Positions 5,635-35,524 of a DNA stretch of 36,900 nucleotides are shown here, one piece after another. The position numbers were made by a program, and so were the translations under genes. The stretch's first letter is position 1; each line of letters starts with the position of its first letter. The notes beneath the pieces were generated by a model that was given only the letters and a program-made list of their open reading frames with translations, searched no databases and was not told the DNA's origin. The DNA is from Candidatus Aenigmatarchaeota archaeon (GTDB lineage: Archaea; Aenigmatarchaeota; Aenigmatarchaeia; CG10238-14; SCSR01), in contig JACQIA010000035.1 of NCBI GenBank assembly GCA_016198705.1, positions 1 through 36,900 on the forward strand, given 5' to 3'.

Positions 5635-6103
5635 AAAAATCTTTAACCACCACAATTATTTTTTCCCTTGCGTCTATTAAATTTTTCTTGAATACAAATA
5701 AACTCACCAAAAGACTTAAGCCTATAGTTTCTGTGAATATTTCAAATAAATCAACAACTATTTTTATTCCAGTTACAGGCACAAGATCATAAGTTACAAG
5801 CGGCCATAACCAAGGCAACGGAGTTCTTATGTCCTCTATCAAATGCATGTAGGTTCCAAACAGAACAGCTATCGCTACAGCCTTTCGTTTGGTTGCTAAA
5901 TAAACAATGGCACTTAATGCAGGACCAAAAAATAAATTGTGCGCAACTAGCCTGGTATAAGGAGATAACCCAGCCAGCAATAACCCCTTGTCAACAAAAT
6001 CCGGCAATATAGAACTTATGCCAACTATCAATGGCGACAGATACAAAAACAGGCCAAAAAATGCAGAAATGCCTATATGGCCAAAGAACAGCATTCTACT
6101 CAA
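5606..6103 (-). CDS. YdjM/DUF457-type membrane-bound putative metal-dependent hydrolase
   Basis: 165 residues with several transmembrane helices. The family pattern of membrane-embedded His/Asp residues is visible: H9 (FFGHIG), D35 in SSILPDFVD, H55 (VAHNLF), and H87-x2-E90-D91 (GTYMHLIEDI), which probably form a metal site. The homologous bacterial family is called LexA-regulated membrane hydrolase; no substrate is known. It starts 8 nt after the rps10 stop and overlaps the ogg gene, so it lies in one minus-strand unit with rps10. The basic C-terminal tail (KDFYDKRLVKK) is probably cytoplasmic. Confidence 0.8.
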   Translation of the reverse strand: MSRMLFFGHIGISAFFGLFLYLSPLIVGISSILPDFVDKGLLLAGLSPYTRLVAHNLFFGPALSAIVYLATKRKAVAIAVLFGTYMHLIEDIRTPLPWLWPLVTYDLVPVTGIKIVVDLFEIFTETIGLSLLVSLFVFKKNLIDAREKIIVVVKDFYDKRLVKKI

Positions 6104-9623: not shown

Positions 9624-10901
9624 CTACTTCGCCTTTACTACCTCTAAGCAAACTCCAGCAGCAACAGTCTGTCCCATGTCTCTTATAGCAAACCTCGCCA
9701 ATTCAGGAAATTCAGATTGTTTTTCAATAACCATCGGCCTTAATGGTTTCACCCTAATTCTTGCCGCATCACCAGGTTTTATAAAATCTGGCTTTTCTTG
9801 TATGACAGCCCCAGTCTTAGGATCAACCTTCGCTATAATTTCTTCTATCGTGCATGCCACAGATGCTGTATGGCAATGAAATACAGGAGTATATCCTGCA
9901 GTTATTAAAGTAGGATGCTGTAAAACAATTATTTGCCCGGTAAATTCTTTGACAACAGTTGGAGGATTATCAGGATGGCCAGCTACATCGCCACGTTTTA
10001 TCTGCGCTTTATCCACACCGCGAACGTTAAAACCAACATTATCTCCGGGCTTGGCTTCTGAAATTTGCTGATGGTGGACTTCCACGGATTTAACCTCGCC
10101 AACAACTCCTGACGGCTCAAAAACTAATTTGTCATTTATCTTCATCACACCAGTTTCAACCCTTCCAACAGGAACTGTACCTACCCCAGTGATAGTGTAA
10201 ACATCCTGTATAGGCAGCCTCAGCGGTTTTTGCGTTGGCTTTTCAGGTTCTTTTATCGTAGAATCCAATGTCTCAACTATAGTCTGCCCTTTATACCATG
10301 GCATCTTATCCGATTTTTTAGTTATATTGTCCCCATTATAAGCCGATACAGGTACAAATGGCATTGTATCCACCTTGAACCCAACACTTTTTAGGAGAGT
10401 GGTAATTTCAGTTTTCAATTCGTTGAATCGTTTCTCGTCATAATTGGCCGCATCCATCTTGTTTATAACCACAAGCAATTGCTGTATGCCTAAAACTCTT
10501 AGCAGCCATGTATGCTCTTTAGTCTGCTCCTGTATGCCTTCCCCTTGCTTGGCAGATACTACAAGAATTGCCGCATCAGCCTGGCTAGCCCCGGTAATCA
10601 TGTTCTTGACAAAATCCCTGTGGCCAGGAGCATCAATAATTGTGAAAAACCATTTTTGAGTTTCAAACGGTCTGTGCATGATGTCGATTGTTACTCCCCT
10701 TTCTCTCTCTTCCTTTACTGTATCCATGACGAAGGCAAATTCAAAAGTTTCCTTCTTAAGTTGCGTCGCAATTTCCTTCAATTTTCTTAATTCTTCCTCT
10801 CTGATAGCGCCACTTTCATATAGAATCCTGCCTATAAGAGTAGACTTTCCTGCGTCTACATGCCCTGCAGTCATTATATTGATGTGTGGTTTTGTAGGCA
10901 T
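9624..10901 (-). CDS. tuf: Translation elongation factor 1-alpha (aEF-1A)
   Basis: GTPase that delivers aminoacyl-tRNA to the ribosomal A site. At 425 residues it is normal for archaea. GTPase motifs are intact: GHVDAGKST (13-21), RGVTI (68-72), DAPGH (90-94), NKMD (147-150) and the SAYNGDNI segment. Domain II ([18 protein letters not shown]) and domain III follow. GAGGGAAAAA directly before the ATG is a Shine-Dalgarno. It is the last gene of the RNAP-ribosomal block here; 57 nt separate it from EF-2. A TTTAAA-rich sequence in that gap may give it an extra promoter. Confidence 0.98.
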
Positions 10902-10958: not shown

Positions 10959-13157
10959 TCATACTTCTGGTTTGGGTATATCCTCAGGCAAACCCTTCCT
11001 CTTCCTTATTCCCTGTACAACACCCTCAAACAAATCATTCGGCAATCTTTCAAAAACTATTTCTATCAGGCTGTAAAAGCCCCTTCCGCTAGTTGCTGAT
11101 TTCAACGAAGCATCAAACCCAAACATTTCTGCCACAGGCATCTTTGCAGTGATTATTGTCACCCCAAATTCTTCTTTCATATCAAATACCTGCCCTCTCC
11201 TGTTTGTAATTTCTCTTATAACCCCTCCCATCAATTCTGTTGGCACATCAATTCTTATAATTTGTTTCGGTTCCAGCACAGTTGCATTGGCTTTAAGCAT
11301 AGCCTGCCTGATTGCGTATCTAACCGCGGGCATTATCTGTCCAGGTCCTCTGTGCACAGGATCCTCATGCAATTCAGCATCAAGCAATTTTACTTTTAAT
11401 TTTGTGCACGGCTCTCTTGACAGAGGACCGTCTTCGCACACCTCTACAAATGCATCCCTAACCATTTCCATAACCTCGTTCAAGTACTGTATACCTTTAG
11501 TCAAATCAACCAAAACACATTTGTTATGCATCTGTATGATATTTTTCGCCTCATCATAATCCATTCCATATTTACCTATTTTTTTTAACAAATCAGTTTT
11601 CTTGGATTTAATTTCTCCCTCGCTTGGTATATCACCATCGATCATAGCCTTGTATACACCATCTTCCAAAGGCTCCAAAACAAAATAAAATTTGTTGTGC
11701 TTGTTTGGAGATTTCCCCTCCACTTCAGGCGATGGTTCAAAAATCGTTTCTCGATACACTACAATGGGCTTGGACATTTCAACTTCTATGCCCAATTCTT
11801 TCAATTTATTTTCGACTTTGGCTTCCAGGTGCAGTTCACCTAAACCAGAAACAAGATATTCGCCAGTTTCCTGGTTAATTTTTACAACTAAAGTTGTATC
11901 TTCCCTGCCCAATCTTTTTAATGTCTCAACCAGTTTCGGCAGTTCCATCGCATTCTTCGGCTCTATGGATTTCGTTACAACAGCCTCGAACAAATGCCTG
12001 ATTTCTTCAAACGGTTCTATAACATTCCCCGCGTCTGTAACAGTTTCGCCAGTAAACGCATCTTGTATGCCTACCAATCCAACTATATTTCCAGCGCTGA
12101 CCTCGTCAACTGCAATCCTTTGTATTCCCTTGTAGACTGCCACTTGCTGCATTTTTTCCTGTTTATGCTGTCCAATTAAATAAACATCCTTGCCTTTGTA
12201 AACCTTGCCAGAAAATAATCTGCCTGTAGCAACAAAACCAACGTGTGGATCAGGAACCATTTTTGTAACTATCATTGCCAGTTGCCCTTTTGGATCGCAC
12301 GCCAGCATTTGCTTCCCAACTTCACTATTCAAATCACCCTTCCAGATTTTGTCCAGTCTATATTTTTGTGCATCTACAGGGCCTGGCAAATGTTTGATGA
12401 TCATGTCTAAAATAACTTGATGCAATGGTGCTTTTTTAGCCAACTCATCTTCCTTGCCTGCATTAGTCAATTCAATTATCTCTTTGAAAGTAATCCCGGT
12501 TTTTTTCATGAATGGAATTGAGATTGCCCATTTTTTGTACGCAGACCCTATCGCAACTGTGCCGTCATTTACATTAACAAGCCATTTGTCTTTGTAGTCA
12601 TCCTCAACATATTTCTGTATCAAAATATTTACGTCGCGAATAACTTCTTCAAATCTTTTCATCATCATTTCAGGAGTCATCTTCAGTTCTTTGATCAATC
12701 GGTCGGTTTTGTTGATAAATAAAACTGGTTTTACCCTTTCTCTAAGCGCTTGACGGAAGACAGTTTCAGTCTGTGGCATTATTCCTTCCACAGGATCTAC
12801 GAGTACTATAGTTCCATCCACAGCACGCATTGCGCGGGTGACGTCACCACCAAAGTCTACGTGACCAGGTGTGTCGATGAGATTGATTACATAATCATTG
12901 CCTTCATATTCATGGACCATGCTGACGTTTGCACCATATATTGTCAACTGGCGCTTACGCTCCTGTTGATCGAACCATGTGAGCATGCCAGTTTCAACGT
13001 CACCAGCAACTTTTTCGGATATCATTCCAGCTAACATTGCTAGATTATCCGTTAGAGTTGTCTTGCCATGATGGACGTGACTGCTTGTAGCAATGTTTCT
13101 TATTCGAACAGGATCTTTCATTACTTCTACAATCCTTTCTGTTACTTCTTTAGCTAT
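10959..13157 (-). CDS. fusA: Translation elongation factor 2 (aEF-2), probable AUA start
   Basis: Ribosomal translocase GTPase. The first ATG (13121) gives 720 residues, but the frame upstream encodes AKEVTERIVEVMKDPVRIRNI, the family's usual N-terminal helix, after codon ATA at 13157-13155. An in-frame TAA comes immediately before, so no ATG, GTG or TTG can supply it. GGAG at 13167-13170 lies 9 nt before the ATA. The AUA start gives 732 residues, the usual aEF-2 length. Domains I-V are present, as is the diphthamide-site His in PVHRGPGQI. Oddities: the P-loop reads SHVHHGKTT (His29 for the near-invariant Asp) and switch I reads RQLTI rather than RGITI. Confidence 0.95.
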   Translation of the reverse strand: MAKEVTERIVEVMKDPVRIRNIATSSHVHHGKTTLTDNLAMLAGMISEKVAGDVETGMLTWFDQQERKRQLTIYGANVSMVHEYEGNDYVINLIDTPGHVDFGGDVTRAMRAVDGTIVLVDPVEGIMPQTETVFRQALRERVKPVLFINKTDRLIKELKMTPEMMMKRFEEVIRDVNILIQKYVEDDYKDKWLVNVNDGTVAIGSAYKKWAISIPFMKKTGITFKEIIELTNAGKEDELAKKAPLHQVILDMIIKHLPGPVDAQKYRLDKIWKGDLNSEVGKQMLACDPKGQLAMIVTKMVPDPHVGFVATGRLFSGKVYKGKDVYLIGQHKQEKMQQVAVYKGIQRIAVDEVSAGNIVGLVGIQDAFTGETVTDAGNVIEPFEEIRHLFEAVVTKSIEPKNAMELPKLVETLKRLGREDTTLVVKINQETGEYLVSGLGELHLEAKVENKLKELGIEVEMSKPIVVYRETIFEPSPEVEGKSPNKHNKFYFVLEPLEDGVYKAMIDGDIPSEGEIKSKKTDLLKKIGKYGMDYDEAKNIIQMHNKCVLVDLTKGIQYLNEVMEMVRDAFVEVCEDGPLSREPCTKLKVKLLDAELHEDPVHRGPGQIMPAVRYAIRQAMLKANATVLEPKQIIRIDVPTELMGGVIREITNRRGQVFDMKEEFGVTIITAKMPVAEMFGFDASLKSATSGRGFYSLIEIVFERLPNDLFEGVVQGIRKRKGLPEDIPKPEV

Positions 13158-13255
13158 TTATAACATCTCCTTTCAATATTTTTTAAAATTGATTTAAGTT
13201 CTGAACTTATAAGATTTATCAAAGTATAATAAAGTCTAAAATTCATGAAATAGAT

Positions 13256-13855
13256 TTATCTCGCGCCCTCTGCCTCTCTCTCCACCCTCTGCCTCTCTTT
13301 TATAACTTCCGACTTGCTAGCGTCATTGTTATAAGCAGCTACAATTTCATTCGCCAATGCAGTAACCATATCTTCCTTCTTGCCAAAACTTTTCCTATAA
13401 GAACTTTGCACTATTATTTTCAAAACAATGTCAATCCTCCTCTGAGGAGCAGTAATCACTGCTCGTCTAACAATTATACCACCAACCTGATATGCCGCAA
13501 TCTCCTCCCTCAATGCCGCATTCTCTATTGCCCTTACAAACACTTCGATAGGATTCTTCTTTGTAATCTCTTCAATTCTCTCGAAAGTTTTTTTGGCTAT
13601 TTTATAAGCCGTCTGATATTTGCCAACAACTCCTCCAGATGAAATCAAATGCTTCTTTCCTCTGTGGCCAGGCACCATTAGCTTTGTAATAAGCCTCTCA
13701 ACAATATTCATCTTAGATTTATGGAACTGTTGCTTGGCATATCTGCCGGAAGATTTTGGCAGGAACGTGGGCTGTAAATTTATGTATCTTCTCAACCCCA
13801 AGTCATTTACTACAATATCCTGTAAATTCCATTTGTTAAAAATTTTTATCTCCAT
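13256..13855 (-). CDS. rps7: 30S ribosomal protein S7 (uS7)
   Basis: 199 residues, normal for archaeal uS7, which nucleates the 30S head and contacts E-site tRNA. Recognisable segments are NIVERLITKLMVPGHRGKKH, the helix GKYQTAYKIAKKTFERIEE, KNPIEVFVRAIENAALREE, and the conserved AYQVGGIIVRRAVITAPQRRIDIVLKIIV. The C-terminus (VIKERQRVEREAEGAR) fits the usual KERVAKGAR ending in a slightly diverged form. GAGGTAA before the ATG is a clear Shine-Dalgarno. It abuts rps12 with no gap and is followed by a 98-nt gap to the EF-2 ATA. Confidence 0.97.
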   Translation of the reverse strand: MEIKIFNKWNLQDIVVNDLGLRRYINLQPTFLPKSSGRYAKQQFHKSKMNIVERLITKLMVPGHRGKKHLISSGGVVGKYQTAYKIAKKTFERIEEITKKNPIEVFVRAIENAALREEIAAYQVGGIIVRRAVITAPQRRIDIVLKIIVQSSYRKSFGKKEDMVTALANEIVAAYNNDASKSEVIKERQRVEREAEGAR

Positions 13856-34200: not shown

Positions 34201-34422
34201 TAGAAATTCAGATGTCAATGGAACGAAATAAACTTCATCAACAAATTTTTTATCTGATTGAATAGTAGCTATATTCGGATTTACTAAAATTACTTTTATC
34301 CCTTCTTCTCTTAATGCTTTGATTGCTTGGGCACCGGCGTAGTCGAATTCACCCGCTTCACCAATTTTAATTGCCCCGCTACCTAGTAGCAGAACTTTTT
34401 TTATTGTTTCATTGCACGACAT
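31258..34422 (-). CDS. carB: Carbamoyl-phosphate synthase large subunit
   Basis: Makes carbamoyl phosphate from bicarbonate, ammonia (channelled from CarA) and two ATP, for pyrimidine and arginine synthesis. 1054 residues, normal. There are two homologous synthetase halves: KKVLLLGSGAIKIGEAGEFDYAGAQA and GGQTALNAGMEL in the first, KIIVLGSGCYRIGSSVEFDWCCVNMA and GGQIPNNVALKL in the second. Each is followed by an ATP-grasp domain (VIRVAYTLGGQGSG-like, and LIRPSYVLSGSAMQVV). The C-terminal MGS-like allosteric domain spans about 930-1054 (LLSTGPMKTKMYLLE). GAGGGATAAAAA is its Shine-Dalgarno. It overlaps carA by 14 bp, and its TAG lies within the opposite-strand tRNA-Gln. Confidence 0.98.
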   Translation of the reverse strand: MSCNETIKKVLLLGSGAIKIGEAGEFDYAGAQAIKALREEGIKVILVNPNIATIQSDKKFVDEVYFVPLTSEFLEKVIEKERPDGILLSFGGQTALNAGMELYEKGILEKYNVEVLGTGIFAIETCDNRDEFRKLMVKNDIPIPKSKKANSIDEALEAAKEIGYPVMIRVAYTLGGQGSGVAYNFKELTEIAARGLAYSRINQILIEEYVGKWKEIEYEVMRDSADNCTIVCNMENWDPMGVHTGESIVVAPSQTLTNREYHELRMLSFKVIRALGIVGESNIQFAVHPDKEEYRVIEVNSRLSRSSALASKATGYPIAYIAAKLAAGYTLPELVNKVTGVTTACFEPALDYITIKIPRWDFQKFKNVSRRIGTQMKSVGEVMAIGRTFEETIQKAVRMLDIGKELTDVDDIRPDLEKIRYELEFPTDKRIFYVVKALQVGMAIDEIHMLSGIDEWFLYKIKNIVGFENKLRNSELLPNLLKEAKQLGFSDKKIGKLVGKSEDEIRRLRKSFGIIPVAKQIDTLAAEWPAVTNYLYLTYHGNADDIDFQRKNKIIVLGSGCYRIGSSVEFDWCCVNMAWALKDKGVGEVIMINYNPETVSTDYDILDKLYFEELTLERVLDIAEKENVDGVVVSVGGQIPNNVALKLVDNGIKILGTSAENIDRSEDRAKFSAILDELKIPQPIWSRLENLENAKRFAQEIGYPVLIRPSYVLSGSAMQVVNDEHELENYLKVAADVSREHPVVISKFFIESREVEVDAVSDGENVFIGAILEHAEEAGVHSGDATISIPTITISEDVKTKIRDYTRKIAKELRIKGPFNIQYLVKNGNVYVIECNLRASRSMPFVSKTVGVNLMGLAANVFLGSKVDDSEAVPTRWAVKSPQFSFMRLEGADPVTSVDMASTGEVACFGKDFNEAFLKSLIASGFKLPKKTILLSTGPMKTKMYLLESVMKLVEIGFELYATEGTAKFLESNGIKTTILHWPLDGKEPNASTFISGGKIDLVINIPKSYEEEEITNDHLIRRKAVEFGVPIITNAELVKILAGALEKPISLGI

Positions 34423-35524
34423 TTTTTATCCCTCGGATGAAATTGTCAAATAAAAATCCGCTTTCCAAAGGCCCAGGCCCTTCAGGATGCCACTGGACGC
34501 CAAAAACTGGCTTGCTCTTATGCCTGATTCCTTCCACAGTTTTGTCATTGACATTAATGTGACTAACCACGAAATTTGTATTTTCTAGTGATTCTGGTTT
34601 AATTGTATATCCATGATTTTGTGTCGTGATGTAAACATTCTTTGTTTGCAAATCCATGCAGGGATGATTTTGTGCACGATGGCCAAATTTCAACTTGTAA
34701 GTATCTCCGCCTGCAGCCAAACCTAAAATTTGATTTCCCAAACAAATTCCCATTAATGGTATATCCGTCTCTAAAAACCCTCTAACGGTTTCAATAGTTT
34801 TTACGCACATCTTAGGATCACCAGGACCGTTTGATACAACAATTCCAGCAGGATTGTAACTTAGAATTTTCTCAGCAGAAAAATCATACGGAACTCTTAT
34901 CACATCAACATTTCTTGCCAACAGCTCTCTTAAAATGCCAAACTTCACACCGCAATCTATCAGAACAACTTTAGGAGAATTGCCTGAATTGTATTCAACA
35001 ACTTTATCAACACTTACAGTCTTTACTAAATTTCTTGTGTTCGGATCTTCTATGGAATTTGTTTTTGATTCTATTTCCTGCATGTCTATTTCTTCTGCAA
35101 TATTTAAAATTCCCAACATCACACCTTTGATTCGCAATTTCTTTGTCAACTCTCTTGTATCAATGCCGTAAATTCCAGGAACCTTCTCTTTTTTCAGCCA
35201 TTCATCCAAAGTTTCTTCCTGGGCCCAATGGCTTGGATTTTTCTGCAATTCAGATATGCAATAACCAGTCACCTGTATTCTATCCGATTCGAAATGCAGA
35301 GGAATGCCAAAATTGTTTGTAATCTTATGCGAAGAAACGGCATAATTGCCGATCAATGGATAAGTTTGAACTAAAATCTGTCCATAGTAAGACGGATCAG
35401 TTAATGATTCAGGATATCCAACCATTCCAGTATTGAAAACTACCTCGCCTGTAATTTCTGTAGGATAACCGAAACCAATACCTTCGAATATCGTCCCGTC
35501 TTCTAATACTAAAACAGCCTTAAT
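34409..35524 (-). CDS. carA: Carbamoyl-phosphate synthase small subunit (glutaminase), probable AUU start
   Basis: Hydrolyses glutamine and passes ammonia to CarB. The first ATG (35425) would start at MVGYPESLTDPSY, losing the family's conserved N-terminus. The frame upstream encodes exactly that missing part, KAVLVLEDGTIFEGIGFGYP and then TEITGEVVFNTG, after codon ATT at 35524-35522. Five codons earlier (35539-35537) is an in-frame TAA, and no ATG, GTG or TTG lies between. TATA-like TTAAAAAT is centred about 25 nt upstream of the ATT. The full product is 371 residues. Nucleophile C261 (MGICLGNQ), and H346 and E348 (QWHPEGPGP), complete the triad. Confidence 0.95.
   Translation of the reverse strand: MKAVLVLEDGTIFEGIGFGYPTEITGEVVFNTGMVGYPESLTDPSYYGQILVQTYPLIGNYAVSSHKITNNFGIPLHFESDRIQVTGYCISELQKNPSHWAQEETLDEWLKKEKVPGIYGIDTRELTKKLRIKGVMLGILNIAEEIDMQEIESKTNSIEDPNTRNLVKTVSVDKVVEYNSGNSPKVVLIDCGVKFGILRELLARNVDVIRVPYDFSAEKILSYNPAGIVVSNGPGDPKMCVKTIETVRGFLETDIPLMGICLGNQILGLAAGGDTYKLKFGHRAQNHPCMDLQTKNVYITTQNHGYTIKPESLENTNFVVSHINVNDKTVEGIRHKSKPVFGVQWHPEGPGPLESGFLFDNFIRGIKNVVQ

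Follow-up and report, generated by a model that had tools for sequence, protein, structure and literature searches.

Probable AUA initiation of elongation factor 2 in a Candidatus Aenigmatarchaeota archaeon

The EF-2 gene and its proposed start codon

The gene for elongation factor 2 (EF-2) in the window, that is, the whole stretch of 36,900 nucleotides analyzed here (contig JACQIA010000035.1), begins its conserved coding region with an ATA codon (Table 1). This codon is real in the sequence and, because a handful of housekeeping genes of the lineage show similar AUA, AUU or AUC starts, it is probably real in translation as well. Judging from the sequence, we give a probability of about 0.7 to initiation at this AUA, which would be directed by a Shine-Dalgarno sequence, use the ordinary initiator tRNA and yield a 732-residue protein with methionine as first residue. 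Starts of this kind are known; what is unusual here is the gene and the domain of life.

Table 1. Features of the EF-2 region and of carA in the window
Feature	Position	Strand	Basis or remark
EF-2 gene	10959..13157	-	732 codons from ATA plus stop; TIGR00490 (aEF-2) match
ATA, proposed EF-2 start	13155..13157	-	ATG column of relatives; TIGR00490 model position 1
In-frame TAA	13158..13160	-	Rules out every canonical start farther upstream
ATG TTA, in frame, then TAA	13161..13166	-	Adjoins Shine-Dalgarno; aligned spacing -1, not usable
Shine-Dalgarno AGGAG	13167..13171	-	Aligned spacing 8 to ATA (mode 7-9)
Met13, first in-frame ATG, rival start	13119..13121	-	4-nt AGGA match, aligned spacing 9
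Leader, rps7 to EF-2, about 100 nt	13161..13255	-	Sequence
Ribosomal protein S7 gene (rps7), upstream neighbour of EF-2	13256..13855	-	ORF and profile match
EF-1 alpha gene, downstream neighbour of EF-2, ordinary ATG start	9624..10901	-	ORF
carA (carbamoyl-phosphate synthase small chain), no canonical start; ATT at 35524-35522	34409..35524	-	PRK12838 alignment

On the minus strand the 5' region of EF-2 reads GAAA GGAG ATG TTA TAA ATA GCT AAA GAA GTA ACA GAA and continues with the codons AGG ATT GTA GAA GTA ATG AAA GAT, the ATG of which lies at 13121-13119. Nine bases (ATGTTATAA) separate GGAG (13170-13167) from ATA (13157-13155), as an earlier note made from the sequence had counted. That note also described a frame open for 12 codons above the first ATG, and indeed the ORF encodes 720 amino acids from 13121, when only ATG, GTG and TTG starts are allowed, versus the 732 that the note gave for a start at ATA. 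Its claim that no AUG, GUG or UUG start could produce the opening helix was borne out by the reading at 13160-13155: with TAA directly upstream of ATA and codon 13 as the next ATG, the conserved N-terminus is reachable from no canonical start. The ATG straight after GGAG (13166-13164) is in the EF-2 frame and is stopped two codons later by the TAA. The genome contains one full-length copy of EF-2.

EF-2 matched TIGR00490 with 998.6 bits (cutoff 738.45), residues 6-723 aligning with profile positions 6-717; residue 6 falls on model position 6, which places the ATA on position 1. The N-terminus was readable in 22 relatives, ranging from the same family to the same class and all from other genera. 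The segment ahead of Met13, taken in the earlier note for the helix that opens archaeal EF-2, was present in every one of them (22/22), with N-termini such as MAKKEMTERI and MAGKDVLERI. The start opening this helix is ATG in 21 relatives and TTG in one (G006, a member of the same family), and in nearly all of the 22 the canonical start aligns with the ATA column. Of the genomes read, this one alone has ATA, the other genera having ATG or TTG where readable. Residues 3-12 are 9/10 identical to those of the relative G013. The nearest named genomes were the MAG FW215_bin.29 (79% EF-2 identity) and Candidatus Aenigmatarchaeota CSMAG_2697, also a MAG (77%). In one relative (L003) the rps7 stop codon abuts the EF-2 ATG and the leader is nearly absent.

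In the mechanism proposed here, AGGAG would pair with the 3' end of 16S rRNA and so place the 30S subunit, and the initiator Met-tRNA (CAU) would accept AUA despite the mismatch at the third position, producing an EF-2 of 732 residues that begins Met-Ala-Lys-Glu-Val-Thr. We infer that initiation occurs at AUA with methionine as the inserted residue, and that AUH starts are tolerated in the lineage. In bacteria AUA and AUU starts have about 10-30% of the efficiency of AUG, which would be odd for an abundant protein and speaks against AUA initiation. The earlier note's suggestion that AUA tunes the level of EF-2 is speculative and finds no support in the sequence; the codon may just as well be merely tolerated. 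The genome encodes aIF1 (SUI1) with an intact normal domain and a zinc-knuckle-like N-terminus, and a search with an anticodon-stem pattern, with or without an intron gap, gave no match for the initiator tRNA.

Non-canonical starts elsewhere in the lineage

We scanned approximately 750 kb of this genome (G000), together with 786 kb from one family member and 246 kb from another, for orthologue-supported genes showing conservation upstream of the first ATG, GTG or TTG; antisense shadow ORFs were filtered out and the results then curated. Conservation clearly extended upstream in 9/361 closed orthologue-supported genes of at least 80 amino acids, EF-2 among them. In G000 the gene for RNase P component 4 (L148:18046) has an ATT start, the next canonical codon lying 53 residues on. 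The ATT of carA occupies the start column of its family, residue 2 falling on PRK12838 profile position 2, and reading back from it one reaches a TAA without meeting a canonical codon; in G002 the orthologue carries TTG-CTC at this column. RpoN of G000 probably starts at ATA behind GGTG, though there are TTG and GTG codons a short way upstream, and metK, a gene frameshifted by +1, has a CTG start preceded by GGAGGTG. In the relative G012, AspRS starts at ATT, RpoN at ATC (next canonical codon 34 on), SMC at ATT or CTG and a Cas4-like gene at ATT. No non-canonical start was found among 155 genes checked in G013. The firmest cases are EF-2, RNase P component 4, carA and RpoN of G012, and we claim only a handful of such starts in G000 and G012. 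The frameshift of the metK-like gene (L087, ~5970-6060; G000:C49) is located at CAT CCT TGA C, a site that looks like a shifty stop, and could be programmed or an error.

For genes whose starts alignment had fixed, the Shine-Dalgarno spacing, counted from where AGGAGG ends, peaked at 7-9 in all three genomes. The spacing was 8 for the EF-2 ATA, 7 for RNase P, 9 for metK, 7 for AspRS, 7 for RpoN and 8 for SMC, while the carA and Cas4-like starts had no Shine-Dalgarno match. Matches of at least 4 nt at spacing 7-9 were therefore present at 6/8 non-canonical starts, compared with 6-8% of random positions (p ~5e-6, a value that is optimistic because the Shine-Dalgarno played a part in the choice of some of the eight starts, such as SMC). 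In an unbiased genome-wide scan, near-cognate codons behind Shine-Dalgarno sequences were not enriched over a shifted-spacing control, indicating that near-cognate use is rare and that each case rests on alignment. It is conceivable, at somewhat less than even odds, that start selection is relaxed in this Aenigmatarchaeota family, with AUA, AUU and AUC forming a standing minor class of about 1% of genes that includes core housekeeping genes such as EF-2 and RpoN, and with the AUH start of RpoN kept between genera.

The same sequence would be obtained if the population has ATG and the A at 13155 came from an error in assembly or base calling, or from a variant of a rare strain. ATA is one transition away from ATG, the source genome is a Candidatus Aenigmatarchaeota MAG of 1.08 Mb (102 contigs containing N gaps; 96.8% complete), and the frameshift in metK may be of this origin. 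On the other hand, the aligned codons of 169 genes, 50,611 in all, contained a single nonsense-type substitution (in CysRS, L133); the same alignment also showed the rtcB insertion described below and some matches in which a gene is not clearly disrupted. Since this is about one apparent nonsense substitution per ~50,600 aligned codons, base-call error is unlikely as a general cause. From the substitution rate we estimate that about 0.1 altered starts would be expected in the ~250 checkable genes, versus at least two seen in that set plus carA. Further evidence against an error is that the well-supported altered starts are all AUH, a class still able to initiate, mostly with a well-placed Shine-Dalgarno, and that the same kind of start occurs in a relative genome. 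We therefore consider an error or variant at 13155 unlikely. The substitution in CysRS is an in-frame TAG following NKYSKKD (L133, ~14209; G000:C22).

Putative short introns and rival explanations of the EF-2 N-terminus

Several genes are broken by insertions of 14-32 nt within invariant motifs. The insertions match the bulge-helix-bulge grammar of pre-tRNA introns, in which four exon-1 bases pair with four at the 3' end of the intron, an NN^N bulge lies on either side, and a hairpin usually forms inside. This fit suggests that protein genes of the lineage contain tiny bulge-helix-bulge introns. In rnhB of G000 (L148 minus, G000:C91, ~2100-2850) the arrangement is GACG AA^A CCTCTATTAAAGAGG CGTC AA^G, and removal of the 22 nt restores GIDE/AGRG (the slash marks the insertion site); rnhB of G012 (L167 minus) has a putative 31-nt bulge-helix-bulge intron in the same GIDEAGRG motif, at a neighbouring position. 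EF-2 of G006 (L019, ~1200-1640) contains five putative introns of 14, 17, 29, 31 and 32 nt, whose removal gives a continuous EF-2 of 730 amino acids. At least three similar insertions are found in EF-2 of G007 (L020, minus), which has in common with G006 the insertion site WFDE/QER and the 3' end ACATTAA/CAAGA. In rtcB of G000 (L049 minus, G000:C18, near 2442), whose product is the RNA ligase that acts in tRNA splicing, a hairpin-forming insertion of 30 nt that contains a stop codon lies at MPDGH/SGYG; taking out exactly these bases re-establishes the frame, and the pairing contains one mismatch. A GatB/GatE-like gene of G013 (L107:3021-4418) carries about 17 nt with a stop at GLE/IHQQL and a partial bulge-helix-bulge match.

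Many of the tRNA genes (L038, L058, L079, L081, L082, L151) apparently have introns, several of only ~12-16 nt, and a splicing endonuclease gene is present in the genome. Some of these genes were misread by ARAGORN; its tRNA-Pyl(CTA) looks like an intron-bearing tRNA-Ser(GCU), and therefore no amber suppressor is claimed. The intron in crenarchaeal cbf5 is a known precedent (PMC2738675). If true, the tiny introns would break annotation of this phylum, and introns in protein genes may possibly outweigh the AUA start in importance.

Since the lineage apparently carries such introns, it is not idle to ask whether a bulge-helix-bulge intron is spliced out of the EF-2 leader, so that an AUG farther upstream comes into frame with EF-2; the encoded splicing endonuclease is consistent with this route. 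A candidate of 86 nt was found at 13233-13148, and its removal would give MNFRQVTERIVEVMKDP. However, the candidate was equalled or bettered in 10/200 shuffled leaders, it is longer than the 14-32 nt introns whose removal restored a protein, it would take out the Shine-Dalgarno together with the conserved A-K-E codons, and no Shine-Dalgarno is apparent for the AUG that it would bring in. Splicing of the leader thus appears highly improbable. Translation from Met13, about as unlikely as an error at 13155, would give a 720-residue EF-2 and leave the ATA-led segment as an untranslated relic. The N-terminus of bacterial EF-G is about as short as that of the Met13 product, Met13 is conserved in nearly all relatives, and an AGGA, which is a chance match, precedes it at the aligned spacing of 9. 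Nevertheless, this match extends over 4 nt only whereas the stronger AGGAG is rightly placed for ATA, and residues 3-12 have kept their identity to G013, noted above. The AUA initiation put forward in the earlier note remains the best reading, in view of the ATG column of the relatives, the Shine-Dalgarno spacing, the conservation of codons 2-12 and the other AUH starts, with Met13 still standing as a rival to it.

A start at ATG 13166 followed by readthrough of the TAA two codons later would profit from the frame that this ATG shares with the ATA. It can hardly be credited: the ATG abuts the Shine-Dalgarno (aligned spacing -1), and nothing points to a reassignment of TAA, as genes in the alignments are open apart from isolated breaks. 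Code reassignment and TAA readthrough were rejected. Editing of AUA to AUG in the RNA was also rejected, as we know of no one-step deaminase route for this change.

Known systems and other features of EF-2 in the lineage

In Escherichia coli, infC and pcnB have an AUU start, and low initiation regulates or limits their expression. The EF-2 gene resembles them as a chromosomal gene with an AUH near-cognate start and differs in that regulation was shown in E. coli, whereas the EF-2 start is proposed from the sequence. An AUU start has been inferred for lepA of Borrelia burgdorferi and Bacillus licheniformis (PMC1780047). There too a translational GTPase needs, by alignment, an AUH start for its full length, although lepA and archaeal EF-2 belong to different GTPase families and different domains of life. 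In Staphylococcus aureus, infC, ccpN and citZ start at AUA and cvfC1 at AUU; the efficiency of these starts is mostly ~10% of that of AUG and up to 30%, and the native AUA starts were mapped by retapamulin ribosome profiling (PMC13009471). As proposed for EF-2, these AUA or AUU starts are directed by a Shine-Dalgarno. The S. aureus genes differ in being bacterial, with IF3 as gatekeeper and an extended Shine-Dalgarno, and none encodes the main elongation GTPase, while the Shine-Dalgarno match of EF-2 is 5 nt long.

aIF1 disfavours non-AUG codons in the Sulfolobus solfataricus and Pyrococcus abyssi systems (PMC6237735), in which initiation is Shine-Dalgarno-led and proofread by aIF1, a factor also present in this genome. 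No natural AUA-started archaeal gene is given in that paper, in which the term AUA is absent, and no report of one was found in the open-access literature searched, which does not prove that there is none. If the EF-2 start is true, an essential protein that is normally abundant depends on a start codon worth about one-tenth of AUG in bacteria, and does so in an archaeon whose aIF1 would be expected to turn such codons away; the fidelity of start selection in archaea could then be put to a concrete test. Gene callers limited to ATG, GTG and TTG truncate or miss such genes, as with RNase P component 4 here and RpoN of G012.

The GTPase motifs of EF-2 are altered in this lineage. In the window (~12940-13100) and in the relatives, SHVHHGKTTLTD replaces the usual AHIDHGKTTL, and KRQLTI is found where RGITI is usual. 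Long open inserts occur in the P-loop region HVHHGK(T) of EF-2 in several relatives (L009, L010, L012, L016, G046, G047), with frames of up to 1270 amino acids; these inserts are likely inteins.
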